From assembly GCF_003001675.1 (NCBI RefSeq), contig NZ_PVYW01000011.1, forward strand, positions 124,001 through 188,000: DNA of 64,000 nt. The letters run 5' to 3'. The notes beneath the pieces were generated by a model. It saw only the letters and a program-made list of their open reading frames with translations. It did not search any database and had not been told where the DNA came from. Source of the DNA: Cohnella sp. SGD-V74. Lineage in GTDB: Bacteria > Bacillota > Bacilli > Paenibacillales > Paenibacillaceae. Position 1 is the first letter of the stretch, and every line of letters begins with the position of its first letter. Shown here one piece after another: positions 4,985-36,010 of the stretch. Both the position numbers and the translations under genes were made by a program.

Positions 4985-6529
4985 ATGTTGGAGCAGTCAT
5001 CGAAATCCCCGCTTCCCTTGTCGTTAAAGGAAACAACCGAATGGATGAAGCAATTGCTCGGCAACAGCTGCGATCTGATCGTGCGCGAATTCAAGCTCGG
5101 GTACGAAGGCGCGCCGCGTGCAGCCATGCTGTACACGGACGGGCTGGTCGACCTGGAGCTCGTGCAATTGTTTATTATGAAGCCGCTCATGGAACTGGAC
5201 GGTCCGCCGCGCGCCTCGGACAGCCGGGGGCCGGGAACGAACGGCCCGGACGGCAAGCAAGAGCCGTACATCCGGCAGCTCGTCGAACAGGTACTGCCGA
5301 CGGGCGGCGTCTCCGAGATCAGGGAACGCGACGGATACGTCAATGCCGTGCTGACCGGGTACGCGGTCATCTCGATCGACGGCTATTCGACTGCGATCGC
5401 GGTCGAGCTGCGCGGCTGGGAGGAGCGGGGCGTAGACGAGCCGTCGACGCAAACGGTTATTCGCGGGCCGCGCGAAGGCTTCTCGGAAAATATCAGAATC
5501 AATACGGCGCTTATTCGCCGATTCATCAAAGATCCGAAATTGTGGATCGAGTCGCAGACGATCGGCCGTTCCACGCGGACGGCGGTCAGCGTCGCCTATA
5601 TGAAGGGGACGGCTTCGGAAGGCGTTATCGAAGAGGTGCGCAGACGGCTGTCCGAAATCGATATCGATGCGATTCTTGAGAGCAGTTATATCGAAGAACT
5701 GATTCAGGACGATTTCTTTACGCCGTTCCCGACTATCTTTCATACGGAACGGCCGGATGCGGTTGCGGCAGGGCTGCTGGAGGGCAGGGTGGCCATTCTG
5801 ATCGACCGCACTCCGTTCGTATTAATGGTCCCCGCGCTGTTCGTCCAGTTTTTCCAGTCGCCCGAAGACTATTATCAGCGTTCCGACATCGGCAGCCTGA
5901 TCCGGATATTGCGCTTTCTGTGCTTCGGCATTGCGATGTTCGTCCCCTCGATCTATATCGCGATCACGACCTTTCATCAGGAAATGCTGCCTACCTCTCT
6001 CTTTATCAGCTTGGCCGCGCAGCGCGAGGGCGTGCCGTTCCCGGCATTTATCGAAGCGATGCTGATGGAGGTTACGTTCGAGATTTTGCGCGAAGCGGGC
6101 ATCCGCATGCCTCGCTCGGTCGGGCAGGCGGTCTCGATCGTCGGCACGCTCGTGATCGGGCAAGCGGCGGTCGAAGCGGGCATCGTGTCGGCGGCGATGG
6201 TCATCGTAGTGTCGATTACGGCGATCTCCAGCTTCGTGCTGCCCTCCTTCAATATTTCGATATCGGTGCGCATGCTGCGATTTCTGTTCATGCTCCTCGC
6301 GGCATCGTTCGGCATTTACGGCATTATTATCGCGTTTATCGCGCTCGTTCTCCACTTGAGCAGACTCAGCTCGTTTGGCGTGCCGTATTTAACGCCGTTC
6401 GCCCCCTTGTATTGGTCGGACCAAAAAGACGCGATCATGCGCTGGCCGATCTGGGCAATGCGGAAGCGGCCGAGAATGATTGCCCAGTCGAACAGGATCA
6501 GACAGCGAAAGGGAGGGCCAAGAGGATGA
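4985..6529 (+). CDS. Spore germination protein, GerA family (germinant receptor A subunit)
   Basis: A 514-residue receptor subunit of the spore inner membrane. The N-terminal hydrophilic domain (about residues 1-270, with YTDGLVDLELV and IRGPREGFSENIRINTALIRR) is followed by transmembrane segments such as LCFGIAMFVPSIYIAITTF and a hydrophobic C-terminal half. This matches the GerAA/GerKA layout and length. GerA-type receptors sense nutrients and trigger germination together with B and C subunits, which follow here. The ATG is preceded by GAAGGAG. The stop overlaps the start of the C-subunit gene by 4 bp (ATGA), showing translational coupling. Confidence 0.95.
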   Translation: MLEQSSKSPLPLSLKETTEWMKQLLGNSCDLIVREFKLGYEGAPRAAMLYTDGLVDLELVQLFIMKPLMELDGPPRASDSRGPGTNGPDGKQEPYIRQLVEQVLPTGGVSEIRERDGYVNAVLTGYAVISIDGYSTAIAVELRGWEERGVDEPSTQTVIRGPREGFSENIRINTALIRRFIKDPKLWIESQTIGRSTRTAVSVAYMKGTASEGVIEEVRRRLSEIDIDAILESSYIEELIQDDFFTPFPTIFHTERPDAVAAGLLEGRVAILIDRTPFVLMVPALFVQFFQSPEDYYQRSDIGSLIRILRFLCFGIAMFVPSIYIAITTFHQEMLPTSLFISLAAQREGVPFPAFIEAMLMEVTFEILREAGIRMPRSVGQAVSIVGTLVIGQAAVEAGIVSAAMVIVVSITAISSFVLPSFNISISVRMLRFLFMLLAASFGIYGIIIAFIALVLHLSRLSSFGVPYLTPFAPLYWSDQKDAIMRWPIWAMRKRPRMIAQSNRIRQRKGGPRG

Positions 6530-7728
6530 GGGGAGCGTTCGGAAAATTCGTCCTATGTGCCGTGCTGCTGACGGTCTTGCTGGGGGTGACGGGATGCTGG
6601 AACAGAAGAGAGCTGAACACGCTTGCCATTGCGGTAGGGATGGGGATCGACAAGCGCGGCAGCGAATACGACGTGTCGATACAAGTCGTCAATCCGCAGG
6701 TCATGGACAAAAAATCGGGCACGAACCGTTCGGAGACGATCCAGTTTCGGGAGCATAAGGCGACCATTTTCGAAGCGCTTCGCAAGATGACGACGGTCAG
6801 TCCGCGCAAAATCTATCTGTCCCACCTGCGCATTCTCGTCTTGAGCGAGCAAGTGGCCCGGGAAGGCATTAACGAAGTGATCGACTTCATCTCGAGAGAT
6901 CACGAGGCGAGAACGGATTTCTACATTATGGTGGCCAGAGGCTCCAGCGCGTCGGAAGTGTTGAACGTGCATACGCAGCTCGACAATATCCCGTCGATCA
7001 AGGTGTTCGATATGCTGGAGGGGTCCGAGAAGGCGTGGGCGCCGACTTCCACGGTTAGGCTGGACGAATTGATCGACGCGCTCGAGAACGATTCGGGACA
7101 AAGCGGAGTGCTGTCGGGAGTTGCCGTCGCCGGGAATAAAAAGAAGGCTATGACGCAGGAAAACATAGAACGCATCCGATTGCCGGGGGTTCTCAAATAT
7201 TCGGGATTGGCCGTCTTCAAGCAGGGGAAGGCGGTGGGTTGGCTGAACGAGGAGCAGAGCGCCGCCTTCAAGTTCATTATGGGCAAGGTGAAGAACACGG
7301 TCTCCGACGTCCCGTGTCCGGCGGGAGGCAAGCTCGTGTTGGAAATATTCGATACGACTTCCGCGATGATTCCGAAGGCGCGCGGAGGCGAGCTGTCTAT
7401 TGCGCTTAAGCAAAAGTTGTTCGCCAATATCGGCGAGGTGTCTTGCGGCATCGATCTGTTAAACGAGTCGGCGATCGAGGAGATCGAGAAGCGTATGGAG
7501 GAGAAGCACAAGAGGCAGCTCGAGGAGACGATCGCATTCGTGCAGCGCAAGTATGGCGCAGATATTTTCGGATTCGGGCAAAGCATCCATCGCTCGTATC
7601 CGCGCGAATGGAAAAAAGTAAAAGCGAACTGGAGCGAGGCGTTCCGGGAGCTTCCGGTAACGGTGAGCGCGCAAGTGACGATCAGGCGAACGGGGACGAT
7701 CAATAACGCGGCCATCCCGTCGTCGTAG
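6526..7728 (+). CDS. Ger(x)C family germinant receptor lipoprotein (C subunit)
   Basis: A 400-residue lipoprotein. The start MRGAFGKF is chosen because its ATG overlaps the upstream stop by 4 bp and leads straight into a lipoprotein signal with lipobox LGVTGC (Cys24). The motif WNRRELNTLAIAVGMGIDKR right after the lipobox and the C-terminal helix-rich domain (about residues 220-390) are classic GerAC/GerKC features. It anchors to the outer face of the spore inner membrane and works with the A and B subunits. A small membrane-protein gene follows 14 bp downstream. Confidence 0.95.
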   Translation: MRGAFGKFVLCAVLLTVLLGVTGCWNRRELNTLAIAVGMGIDKRGSEYDVSIQVVNPQVMDKKSGTNRSETIQFREHKATIFEALRKMTTVSPRKIYLSHLRILVLSEQVAREGINEVIDFISRDHEARTDFYIMVARGSSASEVLNVHTQLDNIPSIKVFDMLEGSEKAWAPTSTVRLDELIDALENDSGQSGVLSGVAVAGNKKKAMTQENIERIRLPGVLKYSGLAVFKQGKAVGWLNEEQSAAFKFIMGKVKNTVSDVPCPAGGKLVLEIFDTTSAMIPKARGGELSIALKQKLFANIGEVSCGIDLLNESAIEEIEKRMEEKHKRQLEETIAFVQRKYGADIFGFGQSIHRSYPREWKKVKANWSEAFRELPVTVSAQVTIRRTGTINNAAIPSS

Positions 7729-7742
7729 AAGGAGCGGGAGCT

Positions 7743-7991
7743 ATGTGGGTAGGGATCGCCGTTGCCGCCTTGGTCGCCGCTGCGGCCGTCATCGAAGCGC
7801 CTTCCTTGTTTCGCGAGTCGGCCAAAACGGAAGGCATTCTGTACTTGGCGCTGGCGGCGGCAGGCTCGTTCACCCTTATCGGGTATACGGGCAAGTTTTA
7901 TTCGTTCGTATTTTTGAGATGGGTGGACATCGCGTTTCTGCCTATCGGAAACTGGGTAGCGCACCTATTCGGCACAGGAGGGGCATCGTGA
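7743..7991 (+). CDS. Small two-helix membrane protein inside germinant receptor operon (D-subunit-like)
   Basis: An 82-residue protein with two predicted membrane helices (about residues 2-20 and 33-50) joined by a short charged loop (SLFRESAKTEG). It sits between the C- and B-subunit genes and its stop overlaps the next start by 4 bp (GTGA). Small two-helix D subunits are known from some Bacillus GerA-type operons, where they modulate receptor function. Size, topology and position all fit that role, but I cannot confirm homology by eye. The start ATG follows GGAGCGGGAG. Confidence 0.75.
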   Translation: MWVGIAVAALVAAAAVIEAPSLFRESAKTEGILYLALAAAGSFTLIGYTGKFYSFVFLRWVDIAFLPIGNWVAHLFGTGGAS

Positions 7992-28095: not shown

Positions 28096-28335
28096 ATGGG
28101 CAGAGCTTACTTCAATTCGGCCGTCAAGGGCGCGATTATGGGGGCCTCGATGACCGGCGGTTGGCTCTTGGCCGACCTGCTGCTTCCGGAGCCTTGGGGA
28201 GACGTCGTCTTGTTCGCGGCAATGGCGGTAGTGAACGTCGGCATCGGGTGGAAGCTCGGAAAGCTGTACGACCAACAGGAGGCCAAGGAGGCGGCGGCTG
28301 CCGAAGCCCTTGATGCCAAGAGCGCGCCCAATTGA
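28096..28335 (+). CDS. Small membrane protein of unknown function
   Basis: A 79-residue protein with a strong GAGGAGGG site before the ATG. It has two hydrophobic stretches (about residues 10-30, GAIMGASMTGGWLLADLLL, and 35-52, GDVVLFAAMAVVNVGIGW) and a charged Ala/Glu-rich tail (YDQQEAKEAAAAEAL). I do not recognise a family. It stands alone between the regulator gene and a terminator. Confidence 0.65.
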   Translation: MGRAYFNSAVKGAIMGASMTGGWLLADLLLPEPWGDVVLFAAMAVVNVGIGWKLGKLYDQQEAKEAAAAEALDAKSAPN

Positions 28336-28400: not shown

Positions 28401-28436
28401 ACCGCGAGGGGAATTAAATCCCTGGCGGTTTTTTCG
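28401..28436 (+). terminator. Rho-independent terminator after small membrane protein
   Basis: ACCGC and AGGG pair with CCCT and GCGGT around an AATTAAAT loop, followed by TTTTTT. It isolates the quinoprotein gene from upstream transcription. Confidence 0.85.
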
Positions 28437-28555: not shown

Positions 28556-30286
28556 GTGAAAAAAACGCATGCCCTAATCGGAACGGCGCTGGCCTTATTA
28601 TTGGCGATCAGCGCCTGCACAAGGAACGACAACGAAGCTTCGCCTTCACCTTCGCCGACGCCGGAACAGACCGCCACGACTCCGCCGACCGCAACCGGAG
28701 CGACCGGCACATCCTTCGATAATTGGGGCTCCTACGGGTATACGTTGGCCAATACCCGGCATGTCCCTTTCACCGAGATTACCGCCGAGAACGTTCAGGA
28801 TCTGGGCGTTATCTGGTCTGCGGACTTGAAGGCGCTGGACAAGGACGTCAAAAACGGGAACCAGTCTTATCCGGTCGTCGTCGACGGCGTCGTCTTCGTC
28901 ACGACGGCGGGCAATCAGGTGTTCGCGCTCGATGCGGTAACCGGCAATCAAATATGGCACTGGAAACCGACGGCCGAGCAAGCGGCGACGTTCGCCAAGG
29001 CGGGCATTATCGCGAACCGCGGCGTTGCGGTCGGGGAAGGCAAAGTGTTCACGCTTGCGATCGACAATTCGCTGATTGCCCTGGATCAGAAAACCGGCGA
29101 GCTGGTCAAGATGATCAAGCTGTCCGACTATATCGACGGGGTCACGCTGGAGAACGGGTACTACGAGACGACCGCTCCCCAGTATTACAAAGGGAACGTC
29201 TATATCGGAAGCAGCGGCGGCGACAACGGCGTTCGCGGCTTCGTCGCCGCGTTCAGGGCGAGCGACTTGACGCCGGCCTGGGATTCCCCGTTCTGGACCG
29301 TGCCGCCCAAAGGCCAGGATTGGCTGGCGAACAGCAGATTCCAAGGGGGCGGGGCCGTCTGGAATCCGGTTGCGATCGACGAAGAAACCGATCTCGTGTA
29401 CTTCGCGACGGGCAATCCGGCTCCGGACTTCTATGGGGCCAATCGCCCGGGAGACAATCCTCACACCGACTCGGTCGTGGCCGTGAACGCGATGACCGGC
29501 AAGCTTGTCTGGTCCCGGCAGGAAGTCAGCCACGACTTGTGGGACTACGACGCGGCGGCATCTCCGATGATCATCAACGCAACGGTCAAAGGGGAGAAGA
29601 AGAAGCTCGTCGTCCAAGGGGGCAAGTCCGGACTATGGTTCGCCTGGGACGCCGCTACGGGGGATGTCGTATGGGACGGCATCCCGTTCGCCAAGATCGA
29701 TCATCCGAAGCCGACGGCCGAAGGGGTGATCGGGTATCCGGGAGTGCTGGGCGGGGAAAATTACGCGCCCGAATCCTACGATCCCGCGACGAATTACGTC
29801 TTGATTCCGGGCATCGAGCAGCCGTCGATCTTCAAAGCGGCGAAGAACGAAGACGAGGCGGCTACTCCGGACTTCCCGGGGGCTGCGGCTTTCGGCACGG
29901 TGGTCGAGGAGGTGCCGGACGTCAAAGGATACGGCACGATTACCGCGATCGACGTGGATACGGGCAAGCAAGCCTACCAGATCAAGACGGCGGATCAGCA
30001 GCGCGGCGGCTTGACGAGCACGGGCTCGGGACTGGCGTTCTTCGGCGAGCTGGACGGCAAGCTCAATGCGCTGGACGTTAAGGCGGGCAAGGTGGTCTGG
30101 ACGTTCCAGACGAGCGGAGATAACGTGCAGTCCGCGCCTTCGATCTTCAAGGTCGACGGCAAAGAATACGTCGTCGTCACGACGGGAGGAGCCAAACCGA
30201 AAGTGCACGTATTCGGCCTGGGCGGCGACAAGACGCAAGGCTCGGCCGGAGAAGCGGACACGGGCGGAGCGCACTCGGCGCAATAA
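28556..30286 (+). CDS. PQQ-dependent alcohol dehydrogenase-like quinoprotein (secreted lipoprotein)
   Basis: A 576-residue lipoprotein (lipobox LAISAC, then a Ser/Pro/Thr-rich linker) with an eight-bladed PQQ beta-propeller. It carries the type I quinoprotein blocks: NRGVAVGEGKVF, SSGGDNGVRGF, ATGNPAPDFYG and SHDLWDYD, plus GENYAPESYDP. Asn287 and Asp330 match the metal/catalytic residues. The Glu metal ligand of methanol dehydrogenases is Asp223 here. Asp332, two residues after the catalytic Asp, is the extra ligand position found in lanthanide enzymes. The usual vicinal disulfide is absent. It would oxidise alcohols or aldehydes outside the membrane. I prefer the GTG at 28556 over the ATG at 28538. 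A full pqq operon lies convergently next door. Confidence 0.88.
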   Translation: MKKTHALIGTALALLLAISACTRNDNEASPSPSPTPEQTATTPPTATGATGTSFDNWGSYGYTLANTRHVPFTEITAENVQDLGVIWSADLKALDKDVKNGNQSYPVVVDGVVFVTTAGNQVFALDAVTGNQIWHWKPTAEQAATFAKAGIIANRGVAVGEGKVFTLAIDNSLIALDQKTGELVKMIKLSDYIDGVTLENGYYETTAPQYYKGNVYIGSSGGDNGVRGFVAAFRASDLTPAWDSPFWTVPPKGQDWLANSRFQGGGAVWNPVAIDEETDLVYFATGNPAPDFYGANRPGDNPHTDSVVAVNAMTGKLVWSRQEVSHDLWDYDAAASPMIINATVKGEKKKLVVQGGKSGLWFAWDAATGDVVWDGIPFAKIDHPKPTAEGVIGYPGVLGGENYAPESYDPATNYVLIPGIEQPSIFKAAKNEDEAATPDFPGAAAFGTVVEEVPDVKGYGTITAIDVDTGKQAYQIKTADQQRGGLTSTGSGLAFFGELDGKLNALDVKAGKVVWTFQTSGDNVQSAPSIFKVDGKEYVVVTTGGAKPKVHVFGLGGDKTQGSAGEADTGGAHSAQ

Positions 30287-30298
30287 GGAGATCGCAAG

Positions 30299-31402
30299 AT
30301 GACCAAAGCGAGGTTGTTCGTGCTGCTGATCGCGGCGGCAGCTCTCTGGACCGGCACCTGCGCCGGGGCGAATGCGCCGGCGCAAGCTCCTCAAGCGCGA
30401 ATCGAGCTTGAGAAGACTTCCTTCACCGTTAAAACCTGGCGAACGGACGGCTCCCACATCGCTGCCGTCAAGGGCAAGCTCATTTGCGGCGGGCAGCCGG
30501 TCGCGGGCGCCGAAGTGCAGGCCGGACTGAATAAGAGAAGGCTTCGGACCGGAGAGGACGGCTCCTTCGACCTGCGAGTCGACCGCAGTCTGCTGGCCTA
30601 TGCGCCCATCCGGGTCGTATCGGCCAATGAGGCGAAGATTGCGGGCAAGCCGATCGGGCAACGGGAGGCGGACGGGCTGGCGTCCGCCTTCGCTGCGATC
30701 ACGGTCTATCACCCGATTCAGGTGATTGGCGAGAAGTCTGACGAAGCGGATGCGAGCAGGGTTAACGTGCAGGCGCGGATCAGAAGCGAGGCAGGAGACG
30801 CGATATCCTTCTTCCAGGTCGACAAGTACCGGATTGCCGGCCGGGTGGAGGATGCGGACGGCAATCCGGTGAAGGGCGCAATCGTCTGGATCGACCGGGA
30901 CCGGGGGGAGGGCTTCGCCAAATCGACTCCGACGGACGGAGACGGGAAATACGAGATGTTTTACTGGCCGGAAGAGGAGGAGACGAACCTTACCGTGATC
31001 GTCGGGCCGCGCCGGTACGCGCTGCCCGAAGGCAAGGCGTTCGTTCTTCCCCGGCACACCAGCGTCGATATCCGGATTCGACTGCCGAGGGAAGGCGTGA
31101 TCATCGACGATAAGCCTCCGACGCTGATGTGCGAGACGGCGAAGGGAGCGACGTACTCGGGGCTGTTGGCGGGACTCGACGTTCCGCCCGACGTGCCCTA
31201 CACCGTGACGATCCCCGATCGGGACGGACGGTTCGTACTGACCGTCGCGAAGGAAGTGTGGGAGCGGCGCCCGGCATTGTTCGAGACGCGGCTGACGAAG
31301 TTCATCGGGCAAGAGAAGGTGTTAAAAGCCGGGGACGCGCTGCCCGTCGGTTTCGTGGCTGCCAACGATCAAGATCCGAGGGTGATTCCGTCGGCTTCCT
31401 GA
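30299..31402 (+). CDS. Secreted protein with carboxypeptidase-regulatory-like (Ig-fold) domains
   Basis: A 367-residue protein with an N-terminal signal (RLFVLLIAAAALWTGTCAG), starting 12 bp after the quinoprotein stop and so almost certainly co-transcribed. Two transthyretin-like domains are visible (VKGKLICGGQPVAGAEVQAG...GEDGSFDLRV at about 50-95, and IAGRVEDADGNPVKGAIVWI...DGDGKYEMFYW at about 175-225). The rest is beta-rich. No enzymatic motif is seen. Its position suggests a structural or anchoring partner of the secreted quinoprotein, which is inference. The last 34 bp overlap the convergent dipeptidase gene. Confidence 0.75.
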   Translation: MTKARLFVLLIAAAALWTGTCAGANAPAQAPQARIELEKTSFTVKTWRTDGSHIAAVKGKLICGGQPVAGAEVQAGLNKRRLRTGEDGSFDLRVDRSLLAYAPIRVVSANEAKIAGKPIGQREADGLASAFAAITVYHPIQVIGEKSDEADASRVNVQARIRSEAGDAISFFQVDKYRIAGRVEDADGNPVKGAIVWIDRDRGEGFAKSTPTDGDGKYEMFYWPEEEETNLTVIVGPRRYALPEGKAFVLPRHTSVDIRIRLPREGVIIDDKPPTLMCETAKGATYSGLLAGLDVPPDVPYTVTIPDRDGRFVLTVAKEVWERRPALFETRLTKFIGQEKVLKAGDALPVGFVAANDQDPRVIPSAS

Positions 31403-32349
31403 GCCGACGGGATCTCGTCGGGCAAATGCGCCATGTAAAATCGAAACCAGTTGCCGTAGACGAAAAGCTCGACATCGTCCTCCGGGTAATGCTTCAACAG
31501 CAGATTCACCAATCGATCGTATTTGCCCGCGTGCTCCAGGCCGACGAGCCATTGCCGGATTCCGTCGAAGTCGGAGCCGAATCCGATATGGCGCTTGCCG
31601 CCGAGGGCGCAAATATGGTCGATGTGGGGAAGGATTTTATCCATCGAGACCGGTTGCTCCTCGCTTACGAACGGCGGAACGAACGTGATACCGATGACGC
31701 CTTCCGCTGCAATGAGGGCGCGAATCTGGGCATCCGTCAAGTTTCTCATTCGGGGACTGATCGCGCTTGCGTTGGAATGGGATGCGATAACGGGCTGACG
31801 GGACGTCTCCAGAAGCTCCCAGAACCCGTTCTCGGAGAGATGGGAGACGTCCATGATCAAGCCCAGCCGGTTGCATTCCTTGACCAGCTCCAGACCCGCC
31901 GCCGTAAATCCGCCCTTCCTCGGCTCCAGGACGCCGTCCGCAGCCCAGTTGGCGCGGTTCCAGGTGATGCCGACCGTCGTTACCCCGAGCCGCTGCAGAA
32001 TGCGAAGCAGGCCCAAGCTTCCATGCAGAGAATCGACCCCTTCCAGAGACAGCAGCGCGCCGATCCGGTTGTCGTTCGTGACTAGCCGCAGATCGGCTTT
32101 CGTGCGGATAAACCGCATTTGCGGCTCCCGGAGAATGCGTTCGTGGAACAGGTCGATGCTTTCCAGGACGTGCCGGAAATCGCCGGAATATCGTTCGGGC
32201 AAATAAATGGCAAAATTTTGCACGGCGACGCCCGATGCCAGCATTCTCTCCAGCGTAACGTCCAGACCGACTTGGCCATGGGCGAAGTCAAGCTCCGGGT
32301 TTTCCAGCAGCTTGCTGAGCACATCGCAATGGGCGTCGAATATGTTCAT
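31369..32349 (-). CDS. M19-family (renal-type) zinc dipeptidase, last gene of the pqq operon
   Basis: A 326-residue cytosolic metallopeptidase of the membrane dipeptidase family. Zinc-site motifs are present: FDAHCDVL (His-x-Asp), LSLEGVDSL (bridging Glu), IMDVSHLS, VIASHSNASA and GFGSDFDGI. The ATG at 32349 is 7 bp after the pqqE stop and follows AGGTGAT; longer in-frame starts inside pqqE lack a ribosome site. Transcription with pqqABCDE suggests a job in PQQ synthesis. No M16 peptidase gene pqqF is in the window, so this enzyme may help release or trim the cross-linked Glu-Tyr product from PqqA. The family assignment is firm; the role is inference. Confidence 0.9.
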   Translation of the reverse strand: MNIFDAHCDVLSKLLENPELDFAHGQVGLDVTLERMLASGVAVQNFAIYLPERYSGDFRHVLESIDLFHERILREPQMRFIRTKADLRLVTNDNRIGALLSLEGVDSLHGSLGLLRILQRLGVTTVGITWNRANWAADGVLEPRKGGFTAAGLELVKECNRLGLIMDVSHLSENGFWELLETSRQPVIASHSNASAISPRMRNLTDAQIRALIAAEGVIGITFVPPFVSEEQPVSMDKILPHIDHICALGGKRHIGFGSDFDGIRQWLVGLEHAGKYDRLVNLLLKHYPEDDVELFVYGNWFRFYMAHLPDEIPSAQEADGITLGS

Positions 32350-32356
32350 CCGCCGA

Positions 32357-33442
32357 TCACCTGCCTCGGTAAGAATAGGCGGACAAGCCGGCATCCCCAT
32401 GCGCGGCGGCGTGAACTCGATCCGCGACGATGCCGCGGTGAGGAGAACGTACGCACACAGGGTCGGCCGCCCGCGCGTCGCCGGTCAACAGAAAGGCTTG
32501 GCAGCGGCATCCGCCGTAATCGAGCTCTCGCCGCTCGCAGCTTCTGCAGGGCTCCGGCATCCAGTCATAGCCCCGATAAGCGTTAAAGGAAGGAGAATCG
32601 CGCCAGATCCAGGCCAGCTCGCGCTCCTTCACGTTTTCGAAAGACAGCGTCCGTATGTCCGACGCCGCCGTGCAGGCGAGAACCCGTCCGTCCGGCGCGA
32701 CCGTCAGCGACAGTTGGCCCCAGCCGCCCATGCAGGGCTTCGGAAACTCTTCGTAATAATCCGGTAAGATCCATAAAAGTTCGATGCGATGGCCGAAGCG
32801 CTCCTGAGCTCTCGCGTAGGCGGCTTCGGCTTCTTGAAGCTGCTCTCTTCTCGGGAGCAGTTGCCGGATGTTGCGCAAAGCCCATCCGTAATATTGGGCG
32901 TTGGCCAGCTCCAGCCGCTCCGCGCCCCATGACGCGCAAAGCTCGACGATGTCTTCGAGCAGATGAAGGTTGGCCCGATGGAGCACGACGTTCATGTGCA
33001 GGGGGAGACCAGCGGCGCGAATTCGCCGGGCGGCTTGCCGTTTCAGTTCGTGAGCCGGGAAACCGGCAATCGAGTCGGCGAGCTCCGCAGAGGCGGCCTG
33101 CACGCTAAGCTGAATGCTGTCGACGCCCGCCTCCGCAAGCTGACTGGCGCGCTGGTCCGTCAATCCGACGCCGCTCGTGATGAGATTGACATAGAGGTCC
33201 AGTTCGCGGGCGCGGCGAACGAGCAGTTCCAGATCGGGGCGCAGCAGAGGCTCTCCGCCCGTGAAATGGATTTGCGCGACTCCCAGCTCGCTTGCCTGTT
33301 CCAATACGTTCAGCCACATGTCGGTCGGCAGCTCGTTCTCTCTTTTCTGCAGCTCGACCGGATTCGAGCAGTAGGGACAGCGGAGCGGGCAGCGATGCGT
33401 AAGCTCCGCGGTCAACGCGTACGGCAGGCTTACGGGCCTCAC
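32357..33442 (-). CDS. pqqE: PqqE, radical SAM enzyme of PQQ synthesis
   Basis: A 361-residue radical SAM/SPASM enzyme that forms the carbon-carbon bond between Glu and Tyr of PqqA. The [4Fe-4S]-SAM motif is THRCPLRCPYCSNP near the N-terminus, followed by IHFTGGEPLLRPDL. The C-terminal SPASM region has CMGGWG, VLACTAA and CRSCERRELDYGGCRCQAF, which match the auxiliary-cluster ligands of known PqqE. I place the start at GTG 33442, giving a 4-bp GTGA overlap with pqqD and a good GAGGGTGG spacing; a GTG at 33451 is also in frame. The neighbour PqqD delivers the peptide. Confidence 0.96.
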   Translation of the reverse strand: MRPVSLPYALTAELTHRCPLRCPYCSNPVELQKRENELPTDMWLNVLEQASELGVAQIHFTGGEPLLRPDLELLVRRARELDLYVNLITSGVGLTDQRASQLAEAGVDSIQLSVQAASAELADSIAGFPAHELKRQAARRIRAAGLPLHMNVVLHRANLHLLEDIVELCASWGAERLELANAQYYGWALRNIRQLLPRREQLQEAEAAYARAQERFGHRIELLWILPDYYEEFPKPCMGGWGQLSLTVAPDGRVLACTAASDIRTLSFENVKERELAWIWRDSPSFNAYRGYDWMPEPCRSCERRELDYGGCRCQAFLLTGDARAADPVCVRSPHRGIVADRVHAAAHGDAGLSAYSYRGR

Positions 33443-33708
33443 TCGATCCACCCTCTTTCCGCAGACGCAGCGAGAAATTCGACGATATCGTTTTCGAGTC
33501 CGCTCTGGCCGTATTTCGTCTCGAGTTCCCCGATCATCTGCGCAATCGTGCGCTGCCCGTCGCAGAGCCGGAGAATCGCTCCCGCCGCCTCGTTAAGCTC
33601 CACGACCCGCTCCGGCAGCAGCAGCAGCTCGGTCTGGCGGGCTTTGTCGTATTTCATGCGGCCCGGACTTCGCAGTCTCGGCCTTTCCGACAGCGCCCGG
33701 GAGCTCAT
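33439..33708 (-). CDS. pqqD: PqqD, peptide chaperone (RiPP recognition element)
   Basis: An 89-residue cytosolic protein that binds PqqA and presents it to PqqE. The core LLLPERVVELNEAAGAILRL with DGQRTIAQMIGEL is the standard PqqD signature. The ATG overlaps the pqqC stop by 4 bp and its own stop overlaps pqqE by 4 bp, so translation is coupled throughout. An N-terminal extension of about 15 basic residues (ALSERPRLRSPGRMKYD) precedes the domain, as is common. Confidence 0.95.
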   Translation of the reverse strand: MSSRALSERPRLRSPGRMKYDKARQTELLLLPERVVELNEAAGAILRLCDGQRTIAQMIGELETKYGQSGLENDIVEFLAASAERGWIE

Positions 33709-34421
33709 CGCCCGTTCTCCCCGTCAGGGAAGGCCAAGCTCAATGCGTCCAGGAGCGCCCACAGGACGTCGCATTTGAACCGCAAAGCCGAGATCGCCTG
33801 CTCCTGTTCGGCGCGATTGCCGCATTCGCGCAAGACGAGGCTTAAGCCGTGATCCGCGTCGCGGGGCGCTTGGTGAAGGCGGGCCTGGAAATAGGCCAAG
33901 CCTTCGGGACGAATCCAGGGATACAGCTGCTCGAATACGCCGATCCGCTTGGAGACGAGAGTCGGCGCGAACAATTCCGTCAGGGAGGAGGCGACGGCGA
34001 TCGGCCACGGCTGCAGCCTGCAGAAATTTACGTAGGCGTCGACGGCGAAGCGGACGGCCGGAAGGACGCGGCGTTCGTCCAGCATTTCCTCTCTCGGAAT
34101 GCCGGCGGCTTCGCCCAGGCGAATCCACGCCTCGATTCCGCCGTCCTCGCCTTCCCGGCCGTCATGGTCGATAATCCTCTGAATCCACTCGCGGCGTTCC
34201 TCCCGGGACGGCAGCTTGGCGAGGATTAACGCGTCCTTGACCGGAATGTTCTTCTGATAGTAGAAGCGGTTGGCGATCCATGCCCGAAGCTGGGCGGGGG
34301 AGAGCTTGCCTTCGTGCATGGCGATATGGTAGGGATGCTTGTCGTGATAGCGTTCCTCCCCGACCTGCCGCAGACGCGCGATGAATTGTTCGTTAGACAG
34401 CAAATACGATTCCAACGTCAA
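33705..34421 (-). CDS. pqqC: PqqC, cofactor-free PQQ synthase
   Basis: A 238-residue cytosolic oxidase that performs the last step, ring closure and eight-electron oxidation to PQQ, without metal or flavin. Family blocks are YHDKHPYHIAMHEGKL, RFYYQKNIPVKDALIL, DHDGREGEDGGIEAWIRL, SLTELFAPTLVSKRI and YFQARLHQAPRDADHGL, containing the conserved His and Arg residues. The TTG at 34421 overlaps the pqqB stop by 4 bp; a second TTG at 34415 has better spacing (7 bases) from GGAGG and could be the real start. Length is close to the usual 240-250. Confidence 0.96.
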   Translation of the reverse strand: MTLESYLLSNEQFIARLRQVGEERYHDKHPYHIAMHEGKLSPAQLRAWIANRFYYQKNIPVKDALILAKLPSREERREWIQRIIDHDGREGEDGGIEAWIRLGEAAGIPREEMLDERRVLPAVRFAVDAYVNFCRLQPWPIAVASSLTELFAPTLVSKRIGVFEQLYPWIRPEGLAYFQARLHQAPRDADHGLSLVLRECGNRAEQEQAISALRFKCDVLWALLDALSLAFPDGENGR

Positions 34422-35326
34422 ACCTCCATTTCCATTCCGTCAACTCCGACCTCGATGCCCAGCTCCGTTACCGTTCGGCGTTCCGGCGAGCGTTCGTCCA
34501 GCATCGGATTCGTGTTGTTGACGTGAATATAGATTTTGCGACGGGCCGGAATCCGTGCCAGCCGCTCGGCGCTTCCGTTCGCGCCGGCAACGGGGAGATG
34601 CCCCATGTCCGACGCCCGTAACTCGGACACGCCAAGCAGGCGAAGCTCGTCGTCGCGCCAGAAGGTTCCGTCCAGCAAAATGCAATCGGCGCCTTCGAGA
34701 TGACGCTGGAGCGTCTGCGACCACGCCTCGATCCCTGGCGCGTAGACGGCGACGCCGCCCGTCGTATTGTCCGTTATGCGATAGCCGACGACCCACGCCT
34801 CCCGGTCTTGATTGCGGTTGGACCAGGCGTATCGGGGAGGCTTGTCGCCCAAGTAGAACGGACATACCGCTAATTGTCCCCCAAAAAGTGGAAAAGATTC
34901 CTCCGGTCTCGCCTCGCGCCAGCGGAAGTCCGCGTACGGTTCGACGATTTTGCTGACCGGAAAACCGTTCGCAAGCGCCAGAAGGACGGGAGGGGGCGCG
35001 TATACGTCCAGGGACGAGCTCTGTCTCAGCTGAAGAAGTCCCGTCGTATGATCCAGTTCGGCATCGGTCAGCAGGACGGCTTGGACGGGGGAGCCGCGCA
35101 AGGAAGGTCCCGGATGAAGCGCGCCGTACGCTTCCGTCTGGAGACAAATATCCGGGCTGGCATTCAGCAGCGCCCAACGCTCGCCGTCCGGGCTGACGGC
35201 GAGCGAATCGTTCCTTCTCGCCCGTAAGGACGGAACGCCCGCTCTGACGCGCTCGCAGTTCGGACAAGCGCAGTTCCATTGCGGATAGCCGCCTCCCGCG
35301 GCGGCTCCCAACACTTTAATGATCAC
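34418..35326 (-). CDS. pqqB: PqqB, metallo-beta-lactamase-fold hydroxylase
   Basis: A 302-residue protein of the metallo-beta-lactamase fold that hydroxylates the tyrosine ring of the Glu-Tyr intermediate. It has the N-terminal KVLGAAAGGGYPQWNC with the zinc knuckle NCACPNC, then LLNASPDICLQ, LLTDAELDHTTGLLQLR and near the end VNNTNPMLDERS, all diagnostic for PqqB. The start is GTG at 35326, preceded by AAGGGGGAAGG. A stem-loop in the 50-bp gap to pqqA probably lowers its expression relative to the precursor peptide. Confidence 0.96.
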   Translation of the reverse strand: MIIKVLGAAAGGGYPQWNCACPNCERVRAGVPSLRARRNDSLAVSPDGERWALLNASPDICLQTEAYGALHPGPSLRGSPVQAVLLTDAELDHTTGLLQLRQSSSLDVYAPPPVLLALANGFPVSKIVEPYADFRWREARPEESFPLFGGQLAVCPFYLGDKPPRYAWSNRNQDREAWVVGYRITDNTTGGVAVYAPGIEAWSQTLQRHLEGADCILLDGTFWRDDELRLLGVSELRASDMGHLPVAGANGSAERLARIPARRKIYIHVNNTNPMLDERSPERRTVTELGIEVGVDGMEMEV

Positions 35327-35349
35327 GGCCTTCCCCCTTCATATAAGAG

Positions 35350-35369
35350 ATGCCGGATTTCTCCGGCAT
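35350..35369 (-). terminator. Intercistronic stem-loop between pqqA and pqqB
   Basis: A perfect 8-bp stem closed on the transcribed strand by a GAAA (GNRA-type) tetraloop: ATGCCGGA-GAAA-TCCGGCAT. No T-run follows. It probably stabilises the pqqA transcript or partly attenuates pqqB, giving excess precursor peptide. Confidence 0.7.
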
Positions 35370-35375
35370 GGATGC

Positions 35376-35447
35376 TTACTTCCGATAGGCGTAGGCGGTC
35401 ACTTCGGCGCAAAGCTCGATAATCTTGAATTCGGGCTTCACCCACAT
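35376..35447 (-). CDS. pqqA: PqqA, PQQ precursor peptide (23 aa)
   Basis: A 23-residue peptide missed by ordinary length cut-offs. It begins MWVKPEF and ends EVTAYAYRK. Glu15 and Tyr19, spaced as E-V-T-A-Y, match the two residues joined to form PQQ in the 23-residue Klebsiella peptide. The ATG at 35447 has AAAGGGGG with 7 bases of spacing. An ATG two codons earlier (35453) would sit too close to it. It is the first gene of the operon. After PqqE joins Glu15 and Tyr19, the flanking peptide must be removed by peptidases. Confidence 0.93.
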   Translation of the reverse strand: MWVKPEFKIIELCAEVTAYAYRK

Positions 35448-35491
35448 AGCCATACCCCCTTTCCATACCATCGCGATAGGCAGCACGCTTC

Positions 35492-35593: not shown

Positions 35594-36010
35594 TCAGCGA
35601 TTGCGCTGCGGATTCCGGTTGCGAATGCCGGCCAGCCCGAACAGCCCGAGCAAACCGAGCCATCCCCAGCCGATGCCCCTGCCCGAATTCGTCGCCGCAG
35701 CCCGATAGGCGCCGTCCGCGGAAGTGCGGTTGCCGTAGCCATAGCCGTTGTTAATGTTCGTCGTGCCTGGAGCTCCCGGGTTTACGCTGCGGAATTGGCT
35801 GCCCGTTCCCGTGCCGTAGACGCTGATCTCATGGCCGTTCGTCCGGTCGACGTTCTGCGCGCGAACGTTCGATCCGTTGGACGGAGTTCCCATCCCGTTG
35901 CCTAACCCGCCGTTCCCGCCGTTTGCCGTTTCCGCGTGCGCGTAAGCCGGCGCTGCCAGCATCAGGGACAGGGCGGCGATTCCTAACGCGGTCTTGATTC
36001 GGCTTCTCAT
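35594..36010 (-). CDS. Small secreted WGxxGxxG-family protein
   Basis: A 138-residue protein with a clear signal peptide (IKTALGIAALSLMLAAPAYAHA), a Gly/Asn-rich low-complexity middle (GGNGGLGNGMG, NINNGYGYGN) and a C-terminal hydrophobic helix beginning WGWLGLLGLFGLAG, followed by a basic tail (RNRNPQRNR). This is the layout of the WGxxGxxG protein family common in Paenibacillaceae: a C-terminal membrane anchor or sorting signal whose function is unknown. It has its own terminator. Confidence 0.8.
   Translation of the reverse strand: MRSRIKTALGIAALSLMLAAPAYAHAETANGGNGGLGNGMGTPSNGSNVRAQNVDRTNGHEISVYGTGTGSQFRSVNPGAPGTTNINNGYGYGNRTSADGAYRAAATNSGRGIGWGWLGLLGLFGLAGIRNRNPQRNR

Follow-up and report, generated by a model that had tools for sequence, protein, structure and literature searches.

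A small predicted membrane protein tracks pqq and quinoprotein genes in Cohnella and its relatives

The passages of PMC3023750 drawn on here describe pyrroloquinoline quinone (PQQ) production as sparsely spread, in ∼10% of 1450 genomes, and report a Mycobacterium cassette that has its own dehydrogenase, so that a Gram-positive PQQ cassette as such is not new. According to part of PMC12124388, the cofactor is made in the cytoplasm and then moved to the periplasm, and an excerpt of PMC2294125 puts its route to the periplasm as an open question and discusses PqqB as a carrier. Here, we analyzed a stretch of 64,000 nucleotides (the window) from Cohnella sp. SGD-V74 (contig NZ_PVYW01000011.1, positions 124,001 to 188,000; genome of 8.24 Mb in 59 contigs), in which the genes pqqABCDE face a gene for a lipoprotein quinoprotein dehydrogenase (QDH), with a predicted small membrane protein, here called f5, encoded just upstream of QDH. 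An earlier study reportedly deals with transporters for PQQ secretion in Gluconobacter. In the titles and abstract beginnings of the open-access literature, a scope that excludes most subscription journals, we found no description of the module, of an f5-like protein or of a Gram-positive PQQ exporter. The best explanation of the whole, and one that we lean toward by a little, is a module for the production and use of PQQ in which f5 would aid the crossing of the cofactor to a lanthanide-type QDH.

The − strand of the window carries, in the order A-B-C-D-E, pqqA (35376-35453; 25-amino-acid precursor peptide MAMWVKPEFKIIELCAEVTAYAYRK; TIGR02107 26.9 over 20, PF08042 25.9 over 21.1), pqqB (34418-35326; MBL fold; TIGR02108 391.1 over 245), pqqC (33705-34421; PQQ synthase, TTG start; TIGR02111 326.9 over 240), pqqD (33439-33708; peptide chaperone; TIGR03859 86 over 46) and pqqE (32357-33451; radical SAM/SPASM peptide cyclase; TIGR02109 503.8 over 381.35). 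After a gap of 7 bp, the final gene of the operon encodes an M19 membrane-dipeptidase family protein (31369-32349, − strand; PF01244 322.8 over 26; alternative open start at 32400). QDH (28556-30286, GTG start) lies on the + strand, convergent to the operon, and f5 (28096-28335, 79 amino acids, ATG after gaggagg) precedes it on the same strand. All five Pqq products exceed the curated NCBIfam cut-offs, and the genes, their order and their convergence with QDH, as given by the open reading frame (ORF) coordinates, are as described in the original prediction. Of the 4-bp couplings that it had also claimed, only those of B-C and C-D were found, while D and E overlap by 13 bp and A and B are separated by 49 bp. 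It made no mention of three genes that were seen again in related loci, namely, those of f5, of a secreted protein behind QDH (30299-31402) and of a WGxxGxxG protein (35597-36010), nor of the unusual metal site of QDH.

PqqC, PqqE and PqqB can be aligned almost over their full length with solved homologues (3hml/1otw, 6c8v and 4z5y, respectively). For PqqC we checked 13 active-site residues (H24, R50, Y53, Q54, K60, R80, H84, Y128, E147, H154, Y175, R179 and K214), with numbering and wild-type letters that we take to be those of the Klebsiella enzyme. Twelve of them are kept in the window, and H154 is replaced by V. To place this exchange, we used a set of related loci that comprises the best 80 of at least 553 confirmed relatives from a scan of genome contigs (29 from Paenibacillaceae, 22 from Bacillaceae and 29 from other phyla; locus L058 is titled Bacillus but falls into the Paenibacillaceae clade of the tree described below). 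Position 154 is Val, Ile, Leu or Met in 29/29 Paenibacillaceae, 22/22 Bacillaceae and 28/29 other sampled sequences, and the solved PqqC chain 3hml has Ser there. A loss of PqqC function through H154V is thus unsupported, as 28 of the 29 sampled PqqCs of other phyla also lack the His. PqqE keeps the CxxxCxxC motif and the C-terminal cysteines in the alignment shown with 6c8v. The self-contained unit of cofactor and enzyme of the original prediction is supported, and we consider it very likely that the locus would provide both PQQ synthesis and a quinoprotein outside the cell.

The f5 protein is predicted to contain two hydrophobic stretches that flank a PEPWGD turn. No Pfam or NCBIfam family matches it above cut-off, and 15 residues are invariant in 15 aligned sequences across two families. 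We followed its distribution in 394 genomes of the same family and in 319 genomes from across the class. PqqC exceeds its cut-off in 29 of the 394 family genomes (40 match at E values up to 0.001, of which the 11 weaker ones were not counted as PqqC) and in one of the 319 class genomes, the window's own, so the rarity in Gram-positives asserted earlier holds across the class and is weaker within the family. A QDH (at E values no higher than 1e-40, with three scored candidates per genome) is present in 27 of the 29 PqqC genomes versus 13 of the 365 others, 40 of 394 in total. The f5 protein was found in 27 of the 394 genomes, and these are exactly the overlap of PqqC and QDH: it is missing from 13/13 genomes with QDH only and from 2/2 with PqqC only, and 0/365 PqqC-less genomes have it. 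The class sample contains it once, in the window's own genome. In three genomes (G003, G014 and G035), f5 and pqqC are located on different contigs of draft assemblies.

We also used an rpoB tree of the 64 genomes with a whole rpoB piece among 66 chosen ones (almost the whole genus and some genomes of the other four PqqC-bearing genera; G007 and G009 were left out), on which the window genome groups with G020 at 100/100. Across 16 independent pairs, f5 and pqq change alike in 14 and in opposite directions in none, with no difference in the remaining 2 (p 0.00012); among QDH carriers only, f5 changes with pqq in 7/7 pairs (p 0.016). A second set, which partly overlaps the family set, consisted of the 33 Bacillota PqqC genomes behind the fetched loci, and f5 was found in 25/26 of those with a quinoprotein and in 0/7 of those without. 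In six of these 25 (G417-G420, G422 and G423), we found no quinoprotein other than a canonical one (741-802 amino acids) that has the vicinal cysteines, the Glu and a CxxCH of its own, indicating that f5 is not bound to one type of dehydrogenase. The location of the gene varies: in the window and in Cohnella-type loci, it directly precedes QDH on the same strand, and in 15/22 Bacillaceae loci its place is between pqqA and pqqB. The actinobacterial loci fetched contained no match to f5.

The presumed user of the cofactor, QDH, starts with a signal and a lipobox (ISAC, identified by eye), followed by a Ser/Thr/Pro-rich linker, and exceeds the cut-off of Pfam PF01011 (277.8/26.7). Its structural model has a mean pLDDT of 79, and its best matches are PQQ alcohol dehydrogenases, with PedH and XoxF among the first ten; of the 50 matches listed from the structure search, the top 30 are PQQ dehydrogenases, with a TM-score of 0.77 (query) to 1yiq and 1kb0. 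We take a vicinal disulfide (CC) and the metal ligands Glu, Asn and Asp to have known roles in PQQ-dependent methanol/ethanol dehydrogenases. QDH keeps Asn287 and the catalytic Asp330 of this metal site. Among 43 aligned quinoproteins, 39 (the window's and 38 from Paenibacillaceae and Bacillaceae) have no vicinal cysteines and an Asp for the metal-ligand Glu, and the remaining 4 have both the cysteines and the Glu. All 43 carry an Asp two residues after the catalytic Asp, seen in the window as DYD at 330-332. Since D332 matches a residue that is tied to lanthanide coordination or use in the part of PMC5487730 consulted, we consider it fairly probable that the metal site of QDH is of the lanthanide type. 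R155, T205, D223, W269, N287, D330, D332, K357 and N402 are identical in 45/45 unbroken QDH rows, including those of 9 PqqC-less genomes; some of these rows are one gene fetched twice, and G004 and G007 are not part of the check. In two further PqqC-less genomes, QDH is split into two frames (G009, C1:291922-293690; G023, C4:345631-347110), as if the enzyme decayed where PQQ is not made; a sequencing error is also possible.

We interpret f5 tentatively as a factor for the export or hand-over of PQQ, a role to which we give somewhat less than an even chance. Compared with a QDH subunit or an enzyme of biosynthesis, hand-over at the membrane is the better fit, because f5 is present where PQQ would be made and a propeller quinoprotein located outside, and it is absent where QDH stands alone and PQQ must come from elsewhere, as well as where there is no such quinoprotein. 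If f5 instead anchored the dehydrogenase in the membrane or served as its electron-transfer subunit, this would agree with the position of the gene just upstream of QDH in the window and in Cohnella-type loci, and with the absence of f5 from the two family genomes that have PqqC but no QDH. However, all 13 QDH genomes without PqqC lack f5, although nine of them have an unbroken QDH with all checked residues kept (two are broken), and in the six genomes with only a canonical quinoprotein f5 accompanies an enzyme that has its own cytochrome c. An anchor function is therefore disfavored, and we regard the subunit role as rather unlikely. Participation in PQQ biosynthesis, for example by docking PqqB, or the trimming of PqqA, at the membrane, is unlikely too, if slightly less so: f5 never occurs without PqqC among the 394 or the 319 genomes and sits between pqqA and pqqB in most Bacillaceae loci, but it was not found in seven QDH-less Bacillota PqqC genomes, in the metagenome-assembled genome (MAG) G421 or in the acidobacterial genome G405. 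That f5 is a passenger, tracking pqq merely through the travel of genes as a block, seems highly unlikely to us even though most genomes encode it no more than a few kb away from pqq. It is found on another contig in the three draft family genomes and away from pqq in several Bacillaceae; in the window, QDH separates f5 from pqq, yet 13 genomes have retained QDH and lack the other two; and the 15 invariant residues span two families. The neighboring WGxxGxxG protein f8 shows no such match with pqq, which is an imperfect control, as most of its hits are weak and paralogues may be among them. A more specific version of the hand-over reading, in which f5 would be a dedicated exporter or hand-over factor serving, in Paenibacillaceae and most sampled Bacillaceae, lanthanide quinoproteins with Asp for Glu and no vicinal disulfide, is a doubtful one in our view.

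A further alternative concerns QDH itself, which might make no use of PQQ and be an empty quinoprotein of the kind seen in the acido-empty group A (TIGR04528). QDH scores 280.9 bits against TIGR04528, where the cut-off of 650 is not reached, close to its 304.9 against TIGR03075, and it differs from canonical enzymes at the cysteines and the Glu. The concentration of QDH in PqqC genomes and the invariance of its PQQ-pocket and metal residues argue against this alternative, which we hold to be very improbable. Several observations nevertheless weigh against the PQQ production-and-use module with f5-aided crossing. QDH remains under the TIGR03075 cut-off (304.9/480.05) and would thus be a divergent relative outside that subfamily; it lacks the vicinal cysteines and has Asp223 instead of the metal-ligand Glu. 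No gene of the operon was recognized as one for a PqqF/G-type protease, and no search for such a gene was made elsewhere; near the window module there is no gene for the CuA-like protein described below, apart from one weak shadow hit. Of the two hydrophobic stretches of f5, the first is a borderline case. The MAG G421 has two quinoproteins and the acidobacterium G405 has pqq as well as quinoproteins, and no f5 was found in either. Since f5 is near pqq in most genomes, gain and loss as a block explains part of the co-occurrence. Finally, seven Bacillota pqqABCDE genomes without QDH lack f5, yet they encode GSDH proteins (G217/G404 and G354/G403 show the same GSDH places, so each pair counts once), and as four of these proteins, judged by eye, bear ordinary secretion signals and one is encoded next to pqqA, PQQ apparently leaves these cells without f5.

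GSDH is also encoded in the window genome and in G421. The signals of the four GSDH proteins inspected by eye (L186-L189) look like Sec or lipoprotein ones, and for these four we rejected Tat export of a preloaded GSDH as the reason for the absence of f5. In Bacillus sp. FJAT-26390 (L058), which has no QDH, a fibronectin-like/GSDH fusion gene (5675-7912, + strand) is located directly before pqqA, so that the operon is probably paired with another kind of PQQ enzyme there. Almost all of these data, which are correlations only, would agree with a delivery step that is specific to propeller dehydrogenases. In 22 Bacillaceae loci, a transporter that appears by eye to be of the MFS type follows pqqE (e.g., L063, 11423-12706, + strand); it is another candidate for PQQ transport or for substrate uptake.

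Directly downstream of QDH, the window encodes a secreted Ig-like/CarboxypepD_reg protein (CPr; 30299-31402, + strand; PF13620 43.6 over 32.3). It adjoins QDH in 30/30 family loci with flanks of 1.5 kb, five of them from PqqC-less genomes in which CPr remains with QDH and f5 is missing; four more loci were left out because of a too short flank. This constant adjacency in Paenibacillaceae suggests that CPr may be a partner of QDH. The Bacillaceae loci fetched contained no CPr match, and the CPr model shows Ig-like domains with generic matches only, so the fold gave no function. With regard to electron transfer, the original prediction had called the acceptor unknown; related loci offer two candidates. 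One is a CuA-like lipoprotein, encoded in 13/20 Paenibacillaceae loci with QDH, 12 times beside QDH and once, in L048, beyond pqqA (the automatic cluster had 15 members, two of which we dropped as false). Its residues H81, C112, C116, H120 and M123, which we take to be the CuA ligand set as in COX2, are invariant in 6/6 aligned sequences, and electrons may pass from QDH to this protein. In the window genome, a relative is encoded on contig 27, beside a COX2 gene. The other candidate is a fused cytochrome c, since a C-terminal CxxCH occurs in 19/19 Bacillaceae quinoproteins of more than 400 residues in the fetched loci, compared to 0/19 in Paenibacillaceae.

To gain an idea about the history of the module, we built a quick tree of concatenated PqqB, PqqC and PqqE from 46 rows picked out of 81, all of them near the window PqqC and without Proteobacteria. 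The Paenibacillaceae and the Bacillaceae each form one clade (100 in both cases), and the two are not sisters; the Paenibacillaceae join actinobacterial rows and an acidobacterial one (98). The GC content and codon use of the module stay inside the range spanned by 21 other long ORFs of the window, not each of which is a proven gene, in line with the similar base composition noted earlier. We rejected a recent transfer to this strain, as close relatives have the module and its composition is within the window range. Because the two Pqq clades are separate and each supported at 100, long residence in the family with gains and losses appears to fit better. The module is clade-wide yet scattered, and no isolated oddity. 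Among the relatives listed, the PqqC of an acidobacterial MAG contig (L060) is 67% identical to that of the window, with Bacillaceae rows at up to 66%; this may reflect transfer between phyla or misbinning.

Between pqqA and pqqB lies a hairpin (35350-35369, − strand; ATGCCGGAGAAATCCGGCAT) with the stem GCCGGA-loop-TCCGGC, which is found within 200 nucleotides after pqqA in 25/28 Paenibacillaceae loci, 0/22 Bacillaceae loci and 0/12 others. It could be an attenuator, an RNA-processing site or a protein-binding palindrome, and it could keep the pqqA message above the rest; an excerpt of PMC2294125 gives PqqA as 20-fold more abundant than, e.g., PqqC or PqqE. A terminator-like hairpin with a T run separates f5 from QDH (28407-28423, + strand, from a hairpin scan) and is weak evidence alone, as the region contains 7 such hairpins compared to 7.8 expected in shuffles. 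An Rfam scan of the window yielded no match at the gathering threshold. Upstream of pqqA, the secreted WGxxGxxG-family protein f8 (35597-36010, − strand; NF041742 56.6 over 35) is a recurrent neighbor, encoded near pqq in 16 loci. Its relatives, mostly weak, occur regardless of pqq in 22/33 chosen genomes, including 7/10 without pqq or QDH, so that f8 is unsupported as a part of the module and its role is doubtful. A putative manganese efflux pump (PF02659; 36038-36694, + strand) adjoins the module, and the same family is seen near pqq in 9 related loci. The M19 dipeptidase has no match in several related loci (e.g., L032, L034-L037 and L046).

Taken together, these observations suggest the following course. 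By homology and the established pathway, PqqA would be cross-linked inside the cell by PqqE together with PqqD and trimmed by proteases, perhaps with the aid of the M19 dipeptidase, before PqqB and PqqC would finish PQQ. The cofactor may then cross the membrane with the help of f5 and be bound outside by the lipoprotein QDH, with a lanthanide-type metal ion, for the presumed oxidation of an alcohol or aldehyde, with CPr as a likely partner in Paenibacillaceae. In Paenibacillaceae, the CuA-like lipoprotein and a terminal oxidase would receive the electrons, a task that would fall to the fused cytochrome c in Bacillaceae. The new points would be the variant metal site, the two apparent solutions for the electron acceptor and the undescribed membrane protein that tracks PQQ production and use. 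If the proposal is true, it offers a genetic handle on how a charged, cytoplasm-made cofactor gets to enzymes outside the cell and adds spore-forming bacteria to the range of PQQ and probable lanthanide biochemistry; some Gram-positives would keep the enzyme without the cofactor pathway and presumably live on the PQQ of their neighbors, as reported for Gram-negatives.

Compared with other bacterial pqqABCDE operons, the window has the same gene set, order and catalytic families, but it differs in the M19 dipeptidase, which we take not to be canonical in pqq operons, in the presence of f5 near or inside the operon, in the hairpin after pqqA (in Paenibacillaceae) and in the replaced H154 of PqqC. 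The lanthanide enzymes XoxF (6dam) and PedH (6zcv) share with QDH the fold, the Asn, the catalytic Asp and the second metal-site Asp; in contrast to them, QDH, at 26-27% identity, is a Gram-positive lipoprotein with Asp where XoxF has Glu and without vicinal cysteines. Type II quinohemoprotein alcohol dehydrogenases (1kv9, 1kb0 and 1yiq) are among the best sequence and structure scores of QDH, and their fused cytochrome c is also seen in the Bacillaceae relatives, whereas the window QDH is without the haem-binding CxxCH domain; at the lanthanide Asp position these three enzymes carry Thr, and their ligand position is Glu, where QDH has Asp at both. The Mycobacterium smegmatis cassette was approached by phylogenetic profiling akin to ours, but, in the passages of PMC3023750 cited here, its host is an actinobacterium, with an enzyme placed in TIGR03075, unlike QDH. 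PqqU of E. coli, as described in part of PMC12124388, likewise involves the crossing of a membrane by PQQ and the use of PQQ made by others, which 13/394 family genomes with QDH but no PqqC recall here; PqqU is a TonB-dependent importer of the outer membrane, whereas the cells that encode f5, a protein of 79 residues, are of a type that has no outer membrane.

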